From Halegenticoccus soli (GTDB lineage Archaea > Halobacteriota > Halobacteria > Halobacteriales > Haloferacaceae), in assembly GCF_002844195.1 (NCBI RefSeq), contig NZ_PEND01000003.1:248001-312000 (forward strand): a stretch of 64,000 nt of DNA. Direction: 5' to 3'. The position numbers and the translations under genes were made by a program. This document shows positions 1,776-64,000 of the stretch, piece by piece. Numbering within the stretch: position 1 is the stretch's first letter; each line of letters starts with the position of its first letter. Under the pieces are notes generated by a model. The model was given only the letters and a program-made list of their open reading frames with translations. It searched no databases and was not told the DNA's origin.

Positions 1776-2261
1776 ACTCGCTTCGAAATGGTGCGGGAGA
1801 TAGTTTCCCCGATCCCCCGGCACACGCTGACACACCAAACTCCTCTGGGGTCGAACCCCGTGTGGGAATCGTTCCACCACACATATTATTCCCTCATAAA
1901 AAGGAGAAAGTAAGATTTCGAGAGAGTTTAATAGAGTGAGCGATATCGTGAGGATGAACGTGCTCAGAGGCACCACGAGGACGTTCAGCGGGTTGACACA
2001 CCACCATCCCCCCTTTTGATTGCACTCTCGCTCGGTTACTAATCCGCTAGTGGTATGGTACCTTACTGCGTATTTTATTAGTGGGAGGCACCATAGGCGG
2101 GAAACTCCCGTTGTGAAGGGTATGGTGCCTCTCGTCGCCGTGGGCACGTGAGGTCCCTGGTAGTAGAGTCTCTCATTTTTGAGGTGTACCTCCTCGAAGA
2201 AGGAAATCTATTCCCAGCCTCTGCATTTAAGATAAACACCCGGGGAGAGATCATTATCTTC
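1776..2261. other. Gene-free, partly AT-rich stretch
   Basis: No frame shows a recognisable protein or haloarchaeal composition. The stretch ends at the hairpin that opens the IS605-like element at about 2262. I see nothing else I can support. Confidence 0.45.
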
Positions 2262-2722
2262 CTCTCGGAGAGAATCCCGCCGTTAAGGGGGGCGGAAATC
2301 CGCCCACAGCGATGCAACCGCCGTTGAGTGCCAGCACGGCACTCAAACGCTTACGAGACGCCGTGACAAACGTGGTATCACGGGGTCCGCTGTCTCCTCT
2401 CAGATTGGCCACCGGAGGAGACGGGCCGCACTCCACCCATGTTTGCGGTGCCCTGCAAGCCCAGTCAAAAGGTGTGACCGGGGCCGGCAACAAGGACCTG
2501 CGAAGATCGACCGCTCGGGAGAGAGCCGCGTTGAGAAACCGCGCGACGATGACTCGCACGCGGATGGAAGCACACGTGGCGGTGCCACAGGACGCTCCCG
2601 GTCGAGGGGTGCAACCCGCCCCGCCGACGCTGGGAGAGGGGGCCCCGAAATCGAACCGGACCGACTGGGTTCCCCGCTGTGGAAGGGAAACCCCGCCGTT
2701 CACGGCGGGCGAGGACGTCACG
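2262..2722 (+). mobile_element. TnpB-less IS200/IS605-like element (PATE/MITE type)
   Basis: The right side ends in an 18-base hairpin (2692-2709, CCCGCCGT and ACGGCGGG arms) followed by GAGGACGTCAC. This is the same layout as the right ends beside the TnpB genes at 44580-44615 and 63446-63480. The left side has GGAGAGAATCCCGCCGTTAA, close to the hairpin segment just upstream of the TnpB gene at 43139. The roughly 450 bp between contain no TnpB frame. Palindrome-associated transposable elements (PATEs) of this kind, related to IS605, are known from haloarchaea. Alternatively it is the 3' remnant of a TnpB element whose gene has decayed beyond recognition. Confidence 0.55.
2290..2588 (+). ncRNA. 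Candidate structured RNA inside the TnpB-less element
   Basis: A dense series of hairpins lies here: GGGCGG/CCGCCC (2290-2305), GAGTGCC/GGCACTC (2326-2344), CCGTGA/TCACGG (2361-2383), GTCTCCTC/GAGGAGAC (2392-2422), CCGCA/TGCGG (2426-2448) and GTGGC/GCCAC (2576-2588). Several stems are perfect over seven or eight bases. The position just inside an IS605-type right end is where TnpB guide RNAs (omegaRNA/reRNA) lie. Function and boundaries are inference; GC-rich DNA forms chance stems, so confidence is low. Confidence 0.3.
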
Positions 2723-2744
2723 CTGCCCGCCATTCTCGTCACTC

Positions 2745-6549: not shown

Positions 6550-7236
6550 GCGTTCACTTCCATTGACTCTTCTCTGTGAGTACGGTTGTTCATAGCTCTA
6601 CATCTCCTCACTACTCTGACGCCTCATCAGGGCATAAACTCGAGCCATATGCGGAGTGAAAGTGATCCGCTGTAGTCTCTCAACGCCGTTTCTCGCCTCT
6701 CTGGGACTACCTGTCGATTCAGAGATTGAACTCTGCTCAACGACGGTCTGGTTCAGTCTACTCTCACACTCCCACGCTTCTTCCGAAACTTTGTTCCACC
6801 CTACCCTATCCGGAATTCACTTTGTCGGCGAACAAAACAGTGTGCTCGATAGTTGTCGTCTCATGAAAAGCGAGGGTGAGAAACCCCCGCGGGGTTTTGG
6901 CGTTTACTTCCAAACCCAGGCCAAGCATACCTCCAACCTCAATCAGCAAAAAGTCACCGAACTTGGAACATAAGGAAACGTGGGAAGTAACGATGAGATT
7001 GAGGTAAAACATTACCTCCAGATCCAGGTCAACGAAGAGCAGCCAGGTCTAGTGAGAATTAACCGAGCAGGCCGCCGGCCTTGTTGTTTCGGTTCTACCC
7101 GCGCTCAAGCTGCTCGGATGGCTCTGACAGGCCACCACGCTCCAGCAGTTTATCGGGGCCCATTCATCCGCCTGGATTTGACGTATTCCACCGTCAGGCG
7201 CCCTTTCGTTCAGAATACGCCTCCTCTTGGGATTCT
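6550..7236. other. Gene-free stretch upstream of the DrrA gene
   Basis: No supported gene is present. Around 6872-6900 there is a GAAACCCCCGCGGGGTTTTGG palindromic patch, loosely like the hairpins of the IS605-type elements here. The rest shows only short frames of poor composition. The promoter of the DrrA-like gene should lie near 6550-6600 but no clear TATA box stands out. Confidence 0.4.
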
Positions 7237-7640
7237 TCTCGGCCACTCACTCCGCAAGTAGAGACACCAACGGAGAACAGGTGATCCCCCGATTTTCTCG
7301 CTCATCATAGCGTGTGATCGGAAAGTCGCCAGTATCACCCGCATTCTGTTGCTCTCTCCTACTACTCTGTACTCACGGGAGGTTCCTCCGGTGTCGCCAC
7401 TCTCGGACAGGCAAACTGAGGCCGGATGTGGCATTCCCGAGAGATGGGGAGGCTCTCGCCGTGGTATCTATCATGTCCCTCCTACGTGCTCCCGATCACA
7501 ACGCCGCGATTTGCTCCCTCGTTCGTCCCCGCCGTCTCCGACTGTGCACCGAGCTGACGGAGCCGTTCGACGAGCCGAGATGAGAAAACGACGCGCCGTG
7601 TTCCACGCCGCTTGACGATCTCGACATCGTCCTCGCCGGA
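7237..7640. repeat. Dispersed repeat, copy B (about 400 bp)
   Basis: This is the second copy of the repeat at 2745-3150. The left palindrome is shortened (ATCATAGCGTGTGAT), but the TACTCTGTACTCACGGGAGG, CTCGGACAGGCAAAC, GATCACAACGCCGCGATTTG and TTCCACGCCGCTTGACGATC segments align along the whole length. The copies diverge after about 3150 and 7640, which marks the right boundary. Confidence 0.7.
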
Positions 7641-8063: not shown

Positions 8064-9153
8064 CCACTGTTCACTGAGAAGACCGCTGACTCTCGTTCGG
8101 CGTCGGCAAACTCTGCGAGCAGTCATGTCGTTGTCCAAATACTAGTATGGAAGCAATTGAGCGCGAGGTTCTCATCGGGTGAATGGTTGTTTTCGTCTTC
8201 GTTCGCATACGGGATCGTTACCAGTGGAAGGATCAGTTCGTGCTGGAAGACAGCTGTCGGAAGTGATCTGCCGAGTGTCGGCTTGAGGATGGATTCGACT
8301 CACCAGGCATTGGCGACGGCTGCTATCACGGAGTCGGCGGCTGGGTGTGGATTCCGGCGTCCGTCTCGCTTCTGGCGACGATGCTGGAGTGGTCTTCGTA
8401 CTGCGCTCAGACGGCCGGCGTGTACTAGGCGTTGGGCTCGTCGTGAGCGACAGGCGCGGCACCGTCGATGGATCGCGAGTTGAGTTGAACGAAAGCGACG
8501 TATCAGGTATCGACTGAGTCCCTCACGATATATTTGTTGATAGAGTAGACAATCAGCTAATGTCACTGTTTAAATCTGGGGTGAATGGCGGAAATCACTC
8601 GGCTGGTCGCCGATATCAGCTATTACGTGGCCTAAACTGACGGTGATCGATCGTTACCGCCGAATGAACTCTACCCCGAACCTGTAGGCGTTCTGCACTT
8701 CTCTATACCCCCTCTTTATCTAATTATCTATGCAGGATTTATTTCGCCTATATTGCATAGGAATTTTTGAATATTCCTGCTTAGGAAGAGAACTCCGAAA
8801 ATTATCCGTTTGAGCAGGGAAAACACAGTATATTGGGCATCTAGTACACGGTAGAGTAGAATAAACAAATAAGTTTCTCCTCGCAACTCGCGTTCTTTCG
8901 AGATCGTCGGGAATACGCGGAATGACCGACTAAATCGTCAATAACTCGTCACAGATCTCGAATAAATTCTGGCCAACTCTCAATCGAACTATCTCTCCTT
9001 AAACATTGATTATTGGATAAACTATGGCAATTCGGCTGTTCTCAACTGGCTAGATAAGATGTCGAAGTAGAGTCGAACGGTGCTACAGGACCATTGGTGT
9101 AATCATTGAGACTGAGGTGGTACTGATGGGATGAGAGGAAACCGAAGGTGCGC
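8064..9153. other. Decayed, AT-rich stretch without an intact gene
   Basis: Between about 8340 and 8512 the plus strand has a coding-like piece (DAGVVFVLRSDGRRVLGVGL, ending VSGID and a stop) that could be the C-terminus of a lost gene, but no start or family is recognisable. From 8590 to 9150 the DNA is AT-rich with scattered stops. No RNA gene or repeat was recognised. Confidence 0.4.
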
Positions 9154-39345: not shown

Positions 39346-39389
39346 AGGAGAGACCTTCTTCACGAGAGATCTTCTATACGCTTTTCCTT

Positions 39390-39670
39390 GCTCATCACAC
39401 CGTGTGTGATCCGAGAAATCGCCGGCTTCACTCTCAACTCGTTTCTTTCTCGTCTCCTACTCTGTACTCACAGAAGGCTCTTCCAGTGTCACCACTCAAG
39501 CTAGGGCAACCCGAGGCCGAATGTGACATCCCCGAGAGACGGAATGGCTCTCGCCGTGGCGGCTATCACGTCCCTCCTATGGGCTTCCGATCACAACGCC
39601 GTGATCTGCTCCCTCGTCCGTCTCCGCCGTCTCCGACTGAGAATCGAGTCGATGGAGCCGTTCGAGCGGG
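39390..39670. repeat. Dispersed repeat, copy C (about 280 bp)
   Basis: The left palindrome is perfect (ATCACAC/GTGTGAT with a 3-base loop, 39394-39410), followed by CTCCTACTCTGTACTCACAG, GGGCTTCCGATCACAACGCC and, at the right edge, GATGGAGCCGTTCGAGCGGG. Here the right edge runs into the start of an HTH gene (ATG at 39652), so this copy supplies that gene's upstream region. Copies A and B end in similar GACGGAGCCGTTCGACGAGC without the gene. Confidence 0.7.
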
Positions 39671-42974: not shown

Positions 42975-43140
42975 ATGACCTTCAATACTGGCGGCGTTCG
43001 ACAGGTATTCGTCGGGAAAGAGGTCGGTATCGTCCTCGGAATGCTCCTTGCGGGGTCGTTACTCATTCAGGGAAATTTCCTTCCCGCGTATCTTGCAGTG
43101 CTTCTCGCATCGGGACTGCGGAACGTCTATCTTCATCAAG
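42975..43140 (+). pseudogene. Small membrane-protein gene cut by the TnpB element
   Basis: The frame reads MTFNTGGVRQVFVGKEVGIV, LGMLLAGSLLIQGNFLPAYL, AVLLASGLRNVYL and then runs into the hairpin at the left edge of the IS605-like element. Two hydrophobic segments are recognisable. The 3' part was not found beyond the element, so the insertion or a later deletion inactivated the gene. Confidence 0.5.
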
Positions 43141-44615
43141 GAGAGAAACCCGCCGTTTACGGCGGGCGTGAATCCGACATGGTAGTATCTAGCCGCCGGC
43201 GACCGCCGACTGGATATTCTACGTCTACGTTCACTTTCACTCCGCATAGGTCGATGTTAAGTATATTCAATGACATAGGCTATGTATGGCGAAACGGGTC
43301 GTCACTCGGACCTACACCGCTGGTATTTGCAACCAGCGACAGGTTCGCGACGACCTCGATTCGCTCGGATTCGCCGCCAGCAAACTCTGGAACGTCGCCC
43401 GATGGACGGTCGGGCGTGTTTGGGACGCATGCGGCCAGATTCCCGATGATGGCGTTCTGAAGTCGTACCTCAAGAGCCACGAACGCTACGCTGATCTTAA
43501 TGCACAATCAAGTCAGAAAGTTCTCGAAGAGCTTTCTGAAGCGTTCAACGGCTGGTATGGCCACCGCCGAAACGGGAACCAGAATGCGAATCCACCCGGC
43601 TACCGCAAACACGGCGACGACCATCCGCGTTCGACCGTCACGTTCAAAGAAGACGGCTTCAAGCACGACGCGAAATACAACCGCGTCCGCCTCTCGAAAG
43701 GCCGCAACCTCAAAGAACACTGGTCAGACTTCATTCTCTGCAAGTACGACGCCGGCCCGAACGTCACCGTCGAGAACGTTCAACAGGTCCGAGCGGTATA
43801 CGAACACGGCGAGTGGCGGTTGCACTTCGTCTGCCGCGTCGAGATCGACGGAGCCGAGCCGCCGGGCGACGGTGTGGCGGGCATCGACCTCGGGATCTGC
43901 AACCTCGCCACCGTCTCCTACGGCGATGAAGCCGTGGTGTATCCCGGTGGGGCGCTCAAAGAAGACGAGTACTACTTCGCCAAGAAGCGCGCCGAGACGG
44001 GCGATTCTGCCTCGCGTGAGGCAAAGCGTCTCGACCGTAAGCGAACAGGTCGTCTGACACACTTCTTGCACGCACTGTCGAAAGATATCATTTCAGAGTG
44101 CGTCGACCGTGACATCGGAACGATTGTCGTCGGTGACCTCGGCGGCATCCGCGAGGACGAGAACGGCGACGCCCGCAACTGGGGTTCGCACGGCAATCTC
44201 GATTTGCACGGATGGGCGTTCGACCGCTTCACACAGATGCTCTCGTACAAGGCCGAAGCCGAGAGTATCGACGTGGTCACGACATCCGAGCGCAACACTT
44301 CGAAGACGTGTTCGGCGTGCGGGCGGTCGGATAAGCGTCAGCGCGTCCACCGAGGTTTGTACGTGTGCGAGTGCGGGTTCGTCGGGAACGCCGACTGTAA
44401 TGGTGCAGAGAACATCAGACAAAAAGTACTCCCGAATCCTCCACCAGAGGATAGGGATAACGGCTGGTTGGCACAGCCAGCGGTCCGCCTGTTCGACCGG
44501 AGCGAGGGTCGGTTCGCCCCGCGAGAACAGGCCACTCAAACGGACTGCGAACCATAATATCCCAACCGCGATCGGGAACCCCCGGCGTTTACGTCGGGGA
44601 GGATGTCATCACTTC
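43139..44615 (+). mobile_element. IS200/IS605-family element with tnpB only (IS1341 type)
   Basis: The element carries a tnpB gene without a TnpA transposase. A perfect hairpin (CCCGCCGT/ACGGCGGG, 43149-43166) lies at the left, and CCCCGGCGTTTACGTCGGGG (44580-44599) followed by AGGATGTCATCAC marks the right end. Such elements rely on TnpA from elsewhere. The exact left boundary is uncertain; the left hairpin could alternatively be the right end of another lost element. Confidence 0.7.
43286..44557 (+). CDS. tnpB: TnpB, RNA-guided endonuclease of IS605 family
   Basis: This 423-residue protein has the N-terminal HTH/wedge region (FAASKLWNVARWTVGRVWDA), then the RuvC-like nuclease in three pieces: AGIDLGICNLATVSYG (first Asp), IGTIVVGDLGGIRED (where the usual Glu is replaced by Gly-Asp, as in many haloarchaeal members) and NADCNGAENIR (last Asp). 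A zinc ribbon CSACGRSDK...YVCECG sits between the last two. TnpB uses a guide RNA from the element's right end to cut DNA. The C-terminal tail overlaps hairpins (GGCTGGTTGGCACAGCCAGC) expected in that RNA. The frame is full length and probably functional. Confidence 0.9.
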   Translation: MAKRVVTRTYTAGICNQRQVRDDLDSLGFAASKLWNVARWTVGRVWDACGQIPDDGVLKSYLKSHERYADLNAQSSQKVLEELSEAFNGWYGHRRNGNQNANPPGYRKHGDDHPRSTVTFKEDGFKHDAKYNRVRLSKGRNLKEHWSDFILCKYDAGPNVTVENVQQVRAVYEHGEWRLHFVCRVEIDGAEPPGDGVAGIDLGICNLATVSYGDEAVVYPGGALKEDEYYFAKKRAETGDSASREAKRLDRKRTGRLTHFLHALSKDIISECVDRDIGTIVVGDLGGIREDENGDARNWGSHGNLDLHGWAFDRFTQMLSYKAEAESIDVVTTSERNTSKTCSACGRSDKRQRVHRGLYVCECGFVGNADCNGAENIRQKVLPNPPPEDRDNGWLAQPAVRLFDRSEGRFAPREQATQTDCEP

Positions 44616-63445: not shown

Positions 63446-63480
63446 AGTGACATCCTCGCCCGGCGTGAACGCCGGGGCTT
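63446..63480 (-). mobile_element. IS605-type right-end hairpin of the terminal TnpB element
   Basis: CCCGGCGTGAACGCCGGG (63459-63476) with the adjoining GTGACATCCTCG is the complement of the right-end layout seen at 2692-2722 and 44580-44612, and lies downstream of the minus-strand TnpB gene. Confidence 0.7.
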
Positions 63481-63521
63481 CCACCACGGGTGGAATACCA
63501 GCAACGTGCTGGATTAAGGTT

Positions 63522-64000
63522 TCAAGACGTATGCGCGTCACCGGTCTCCGGCTCCGTCCCCGCTCCCACCGCTGGTGAGTTAGACGAAACCTTGTCATCG
63601 GAAGCCCGCCTCTCGGACGGGAAGCCCTCACTCGGTGACGTGTCTTCGTGGGCCTGCCACTGGCCCCCACTCCGAGGCGAGTCATCGCCTGCCGATATCC
63701 AAGGCAGGCTTTCTCCCCACGGATTCAGCCGATTAGCTATGTTCGCTGCTGCGTTCAAATCCGCTTGATACTCCGACACCCAACATGCCTCGTTCGTACA
63801 TCGGAACGTGCCCTGATGCGGTCGATACCCGATGTGCTGACAGGCGTGACATGTTTTCGACGTGTGATGCGGATGCACGTATTCCACAGGAATTCCGCGT
63901 TCCGCTGCCTTATCCTCGATGCGTGACTGCAACCGAGAGAGCAGCCACTTTCCGAGACGTCGATTCCAATACTTCCCAATGCCCTCGTCCGTGATACCAT
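63522..64000 (-). CDS. tnpB: TnpB, IS605 family, partial (5' end outside the window)
   Basis: The frame is open to the end of the window. The visible 159 residues contain GKYWNRRLGKWLLSRLQSRI, ERGIPVEYVHPHHTSKTCHA, a zinc ribbon CHACQHIGYRPHQGTFRCTN and the last RuvC Asp in EYQADLNAAANIANRL, followed by a long hydrophilic tail rich in Ser, Pro and Glu. It belongs to another TnpB subgroup than the gene at 43286. Its right-end hairpin lies at 63459-63476, so the element is probably complete outside the window. Confidence 0.85.
   Translation of the reverse strand, partial: GITDEGIGKYWNRRLGKWLLSRLQSRIEDKAAERGIPVEYVHPHHTSKTCHACQHIGYRPHQGTFRCTNEACWVSEYQADLNAAANIANRLNPWGESLPWISAGDDSPRSGGQWQAHEDTSPSEGFPSERRASDDKVSSNSPAVGAGTEPETGDAHTS

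Follow-up and report, generated by a model that had tools for sequence, protein, structure and literature searches.

Palindrome-associated transposable elements (PATEs) were described in Haloquadratum walsbyi as elements with IS605-like near-terminal palindromes and without inverted terminal repeats, target duplications or a transposase, and one of them, HqIRS71, has by its description a 3′ segment in common with IS605 elements, with part of the tnpB C-terminal coding region in it (PMC3119063). That report treats PATEs as non-coding, degenerate elements and deals with neither RNA structure, guide RNA nor covariation. In the virus HRTV-DL1 transcription is strongest over the last ∼300 bp (3′) of a PATE that is 489 bp long and also found on pR1SE, and an ncRNA role was suggested for the transcripts, without a structure or a connection to the omega-RNA of any TnpB clade (PMC10544981). 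TnpB itself is a nuclease directed by a guide RNA; it cleaves sites from which the insertion is missing, and gene drive in multicopy plasmids has been reported (PMC11870625). The omega-RNA of ISDra2 TnpB stops at the right end of the transposon and continues into the guide (PMC10097598, PMC8612924); in the cryo-EM structure a hairpin loop base-pairs with the bases immediately ahead of the guide, ∼100 nt farther downstream, and the resulting pseudoknot is reported to be conserved among Cas12 guide RNAs (PMC10097598). Among haloarchaea, tnpB-overlapping RNAs are represented in Rfam by sot0042 (sotRNA), which shares the general layout with the RNA described below and belongs with another TnpB clade. 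Guide RNAs apart from their nuclease gene are reportedly known for IscB, as standalone omega-RNAs, and PATEs are said to have been noted in Geobacillus (Altae-Tran 2021, Meers 2023). PATEs, tnpB-overlapping omega-RNAs and the transcription of one PATE are thus already known. In a literature search confined to papers outside subscription, no earlier account came up of a PATE clade that is old, lacks tnpB and has a TnpB-type guide RNA with covariation.

The window analysed here, a stretch of 64,000 nt from contig 3 of a haloarchaeal genome of 4.6 Mb, contains an element of 464 bp with IS200/IS605-type ends and no protein gene, which belongs to the dispersed haloarchaeal PATE family and to the same clade as the HRTV-DL1 and pR1SE copies. 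A preliminary description had placed a TnpB-less element at 2262-2722; the element is real, and its boundaries are refined to approximately 2258-2721. The likeness that was noted to the ends of the complete tnpB element at 43139-44615 also holds, as the left ends (2255-2302 and 43128-43176) show 81.6% identity in 49 bp and both elements have the right-end hairpin. Near-terminal palindromes of IS605 kind are present, terminal inverted repeats and a transposase gene are absent, and the ORF list of the window gives neither a TnpA nor a TnpB frame inside 2258-2721, the reading frames there having arisen by chance or being left over from the TnpB C-terminal tail. The boundaries were inferred from near-identical family copies in differing flanks and from one empty site, and would put the element of the window directly behind a TTAT (Table 1). 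Among near-identical copies with different flanks, variation was restricted to a YTAY motif; YTAY(C) precedes most family copies and is likely the target or TAM. The start of the element carries an ambiguity of 1 nt since the base after YTAY is always C. Directly after the element, 2733-2900 is repeated at 7236-7399 (78%) and 39387-39494 (81%), and is possibly another small mobile repeat.

Table 1. Features of the PATE-type element and of the related tnpB element at the right edge of the window (positions in the window)
Feature	Positions	Strand	Basis or remark
TTAT, probable target/TAM-like tetranucleotide 5′ of the element	2254-2257	+	family consensus YTAY, next base C
Whole PATE-type element, IS200/IS605-like	2258-2721	+	alignment of full copies; 482-bp insertion of a relative
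Left-end near-terminal hairpin, CCGCC/GGCGG in the window copy	2276-2295	+	common to the 43139 tnpB element and all family copies
Hairpin TTGAGTGCC/GGCACTCAA, private to the window copy	2324-2346	+	missing from aligned relatives
Promoter-like box AAACGCTTACGA	2345-2357	+	relatives AAACGCTTAGTA; second own-genome copy AAATATTTATC, same place
Upstream hairpin a, conserved (2390-2398 with 2416-2424)	2390-2424	+	nine sequences: 93.8% paired, 5/9 pairs changed on both sides
Upstream hairpin b, conserved (CCGCA/TGCGG)	2426-2448	+	97.8% paired, compensatory change in 2 pairs
Omega-RNA-like core	2518-2721	+	homologous to tnpB 3′ end, omega-RNA and right end; own match to model R1 177 bits
Stem A, GCCGCGT/GCGCGAC, one mismatch in the window copy	2525-2547	+	6/7 pairs covary in the family
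Stem B hairpin (helix 3)	2568-2586	+	pseudoknot 5′ strand in its loop (2576-2581, GTGGCG)
Pseudoknot 5′ strand	2576-2581	+	forms helix 4 with 2716-2721; pairing in 100% of cells, with switches from A-U to G-C
Right-end near-terminal hairpin CCCCGCCG/CGGCGGG	2691-2711	+	helix 10; family alignment
CGTCAC, element 3′ end and pseudoknot 3′ strand	2716-2721	+	immediately precedes the predicted guide
Predicted guide, flanking host DNA GCTGCCCGCCATTCTCGTCA	2722-2741	+	position only, by analogy with TnpB omega-RNA; putative guide use
tnpB-linked omega-RNA and right end, PATE RNA family	63447-63716	-	model R1 107.6 bits, E 3e-32; loop AGTGGCA against TGTCAC(T)
3′ part of tnpB, PATE-related clade	63654-64000	-	continues to contig position 312829; one in-frame TGA

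The preliminary description had made its proposal depend on further copies and on transcription, and both exist, the latter in the published data for the HRTV-DL1 member (PMC10544981). A second, shorter relative lies in the same genome (contig C11, approximately 8233-8619; 73% identity over the right 210 bp), together with a 69-bp fragment. Some match was found in 69 of 170 genomes of the host's taxonomic family, with full-length or nearly full-length relatives in several genera, and relatives occur on plasmids of Haladaptatus, Halorubrum, Natrinema and others as well as in a Halorubrum tailed virus. Copies on a chromosome (L103), on plasmid pR1SE2 (L122) and in HRTV-DL1 (L124) are 99.8-100% identical over 482 bp in unrelated flanks, and L104 has the same ends at a fourth site. 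The family is mobile: in a single genome (G120) a conserved gene is split into two pieces by a 482-bp insert, and most congeners align continuously over ∼260 bp across the junction. That insertion was precise and without target duplication, as expected of a PATE, a property observed on this relative rather than on the window copy. Searches of plasmid and phage collections gave no empty site for the plasmid copy or the virus copy. The host genome contains three intact Y1 transposase frames.

Three side observations concern the same elements. One PATE family is carried by both a halovirus (HRTV-DL1) and a Halorubrum lacusprofundi plasmid (pR1SE2), at 99.8% identity to chromosomal copies. Three copies (L112, L114, L121) carry a 57-bp palindromic insert (GTTGACGAGACG...GTTCTGGGGA) within the left-end hairpin, similar to the small mobile repeats that reportedly insert into PATE palindromes (PMC3119063). 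Finally, a truncated copy of the 43139-type tnpB element, a 93% identical left fragment of 248 bp, lies elsewhere in the host genome (L008, G000:C3:342072-342319).

In one TnpB clade, characterized by an ‘NPWGES’ tail, the tnpB 3′ end together with the omega-RNA and the right end is homologous to the right 204 bp of the element (2518-2721). Read as protein, these 204 bp and their relatives resemble the TnpB C-terminal tail ...NIAxRxNPWGESLPWKPxxDDSPRDGS... (E 6e-9 to tnpB 3′ ends); in Halobaculum, Halomarina and others the corresponding DNA is a tnpB 3′ end followed by the right end (L118, L131, L132), and proteins of the clade (P0001-P0003) carry PF07282, the Cas12f1-like_TNB domain. What looked like a tnpB match upstream of L281 and L130 proved to be the tail frame plus a remote match due to chance. 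A covariance model derived from PATE RNAs (R1) gave RNAs linked to tnpB in this clade scores of up to 176 bits, which places the PATE RNA among homologs of tnpB-overlapping RNAs; as PATE copies supplied most of the sequences behind R1, the numbers of tnpB-linked members are minimum values. The tail-like frame (GES..EKP.GDD..DGS) is readable in most copies, and some are annotated as a hypothetical protein, so one could imagine that what is conserved is a short peptide derived from the TnpB tail. We regard this as extremely improbable, given in-frame stops in L108, L109, L120 and L128, the lack of a common start codon, and covariation of paired columns that crosses codon positions.

The cognate TnpB clade is not that of the element at 43139-44615, to which the preliminary description likened the ends. 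The omega-RNA of that element, at 44424-44600, is of Rfam sot0042 type (92.4 bits); PATE reaches 10.7 bits over only 18 positions with that model (RF02656), where the gathering score is 88, and we rejected sot0042 as the parent type. Model R1 also matches the sot0042-type RNA at 44454-44609 (37.5 bits), hence the two RNA types are probably distant relatives. In Rfam searches at gathering level and with permissive settings, nothing in PATE rose above chance except a weak resemblance of the right end to HgcC. This resemblance was seen in two PATE right ends (L002 1592-1712 and L001 1843-1974; 23 and 17 bits), and HgcC may itself be an IS605-type omega-RNA.

The PATE-related clade is instead represented at the right edge of the window, and the host genome holds three TnpB members of it, two with a TGA (one being that at the window edge) and one intact. 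The intact member, at C5:156448, is a frame of 409 aa that has the catalytic D, E and D motifs and is 48% identical to the clade reference P0001. At this locus (G000:C5:155169-157581) ∼1.1 kb, apparently another IS insertion, separates the intact TnpB from its own RNA and right end. Displaced in this way, the intact TnpB may itself depend on RNA supplied in trans. The clade was found at E ≤ 1e-60 in all 12 PATE genomes tested; however, the RNA family occurs in 146 of 167 genomes of the host's family and in 133 of 292 genomes of the class (E ≤ 1e-30), and with family and clade so common this co-occurrence is a consistency check only and proves little.

Dense hairpins had been taken as the sign of a structured RNA in the preliminary description. 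This argument we abandoned, since dinucleotide shuffles at the same GC fold almost as well: z-scores were -1.94 for 2258-2721, -0.20 for 2518-2721 and -0.72 for 2384-2517. Hairpin density in the single sequence is not above chance, and the case stands on comparison with relatives. In an alignment of 23 sequences (A2; 20 of them PATE-type) a ten-helix structure with 53 pairs had 95.3% of its cells paired, against 35-45% in slid controls, with 28 of the 53 pairs changed on both sides and a covariation of 0.372 as compared with 0.04-0.09. Upstream of this core, four more hairpins, specific to PATEs, covary among nine sequences (96.3% paired, 12/24 pairs double-changed). Conserved structure lies mostly at 2518-2721, to the right of the central bases where it was first sought, and only one of the two stems singled out for testing by covariation held up: 2392-2422 is one of the four upstream hairpins, kept with compensatory changes, whereas 2326-2344 is private to the window copy. 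The window copy keeps 49 of the 53 pairs, with two mismatches in stem C and one each in stems A and B, and its promoter box has diverged from the consensus. With stem C weakened and the box diverged, this copy looks slightly worn and may be heading to inactivity.

Helix 4 is formed by the loop of stem B (GTGACA or GTGGCG) and the last six bases of the element (TGTCAC or CGTCAC), and thereby joins a hairpin loop to the nucleotides just before the guide position, as in the omega-RNA pseudoknot of TnpB. The likeness to ISDra2 is one of architecture, and PATE differs in having no adjoining tnpB, a longer scaffold and extra hairpins. The conserved core stops at TCAC, the right boundary, so that the adjoining DNA sits at the guide position. 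Two further explanations were weighed. The first is that selection acts on an RNA that is not a guide, be it a decoy, a regulator of TnpB or TnpA, or another small RNA. An ncRNA role has been suggested for the relative in HRTV-DL1 (PMC10544981) and decoy roles are discussed for circular omega-RNAs (PMC12558985); yet the pseudoknot strand lies exactly at the 3′ end where a guide would start, and the end position and YTAY target are kept as in tnpB elements, for which a pure decoy has no obvious need, so we judge this unlikely. The second is that the structure is selected in single-stranded DNA for transposition by TnpA. IS200/IS605 transposition does employ end hairpins in single-stranded DNA, and both are kept here. 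However, the conserved helices reach far past the ends and pass through many G-U intermediates, and the interior is homologous to tnpB-linked omega-RNA, which leaves this explanation little room.

Two lines of evidence indicate that pairing in the RNA has been maintained after tnpB was lost. RNA-family loci were classed by tblastn for an upstream tnpB, leaving one locus at a contig edge (L286) out of the trees. First, all 32 RNAs with a PATE-type flank formed one clade that contained no tnpB-linked RNA (FastTree 1.0; IQ-TREE UFBoot 100). Repeated independent deletion of tnpB was considered as the origin and is not supported by this single clade. Secondly, parsimony counted 32 double compensatory changes inside the PATE clade with a tree from all columns, and 39 with a tree from unpaired columns only, against 0-4 in slid-partner controls. 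Consequently, the RNA has been under selection since the loss of tnpB, as would not be expected of a relic. It could still be argued that the element arose from a tnpB element by deletion, that TnpA mobilises it in trans and that its RNA is a passive relic without function: PATEs have been described as degenerate IS605 elements arising from core deletion (PMC3119063), decayed tnpB elements with the PATE-type RNA family exist (L135, L180, L225), and four pairs are broken in the window copy. Against this stand the age and unity of the clade, which is not made up of scattered recent deletions, the compensatory changes within it, and the covariation of the PATE-specific upstream hairpins, and we consider a passive relic improbable.

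Our preferred reading, which we hold to be probable, is that an ancestor lost tnpB, kept the omega-RNA in its 3′ half and then spread without proteins, and that 2258-2721 is a non-autonomous IS200/IS605 element of this lineage that would supply guide RNA in trans to TnpB. The core of the preliminary description, a TnpB-less element still encoding a structured guide-type RNA, is retained on the strength of the copies, the covariation and the transcription of a relative, although with another TnpB clade and on different evidence; an ncRNA role for PATE transcripts had been suggested earlier (PMC10544981). Compared with the standalone IscB omega-RNAs and the Geobacillus PATEs, the present case concerns an ancient tnpB-less clade extending across haloarchaeal families, with covariation tested inside it.

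As for expression, a candidate promoter, judged from sequence, is the conserved box found in relatives (Table 1), which lies ∼340 nt upstream of the 3′ end. The reads of the HRTV-DL1 PATE are termed ‘reverse’, antisense to ORF3, and the kit named is NEBNext Ultra II (PMC10544981); they represent sense RNA only if the library was dUTP-directional, the library type not being stated in that paper.

According to our hypothesis, a Y1 transposase made elsewhere would mobilise PATE through its end hairpins. The element would give rise to an RNA of ∼300 nt, closing with the pseudoknotted right end and continuing into flanking DNA as guide, and a TnpB of the matching clade, likewise made elsewhere, would load it. 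Loaded TnpB could then cleave chromosome or plasmid copies without the insertion (YTAY plus guide), and repair from an insertion-bearing copy would restore or spread PATE. Haloarchaea are commonly polyploid, and this would favour both retention and drive. By lending its RNA to resident TnpB, a PATE would gain both at zero coding cost. A further step, for which we see about even chances, is that the lineage, ancient, radiated, protein-less and present also on plasmids and in a virus, programs resident TnpB in trans and drives itself through polyploid genomes as a guide-RNA parasite.

In conclusion, PATEs encode no proteins, and the constraint on RNA pairing long after the loss of tnpB suggests that TnpB is programmable in trans. 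Elements of this type probably survive by lending guide RNAs to TnpB from other elements in the same archaeon, which suggests that mobile DNA can exploit a TnpB that it does not encode, with nuclease and guide naturally separated in a CRISPR-like manner. This offers a testable explanation for the persistence of PATEs and for the many tnpA-less IS1341-type elements of haloarchaea, and provides orphan guide RNAs paired with TnpB in Halorubrum and other tractable genera.
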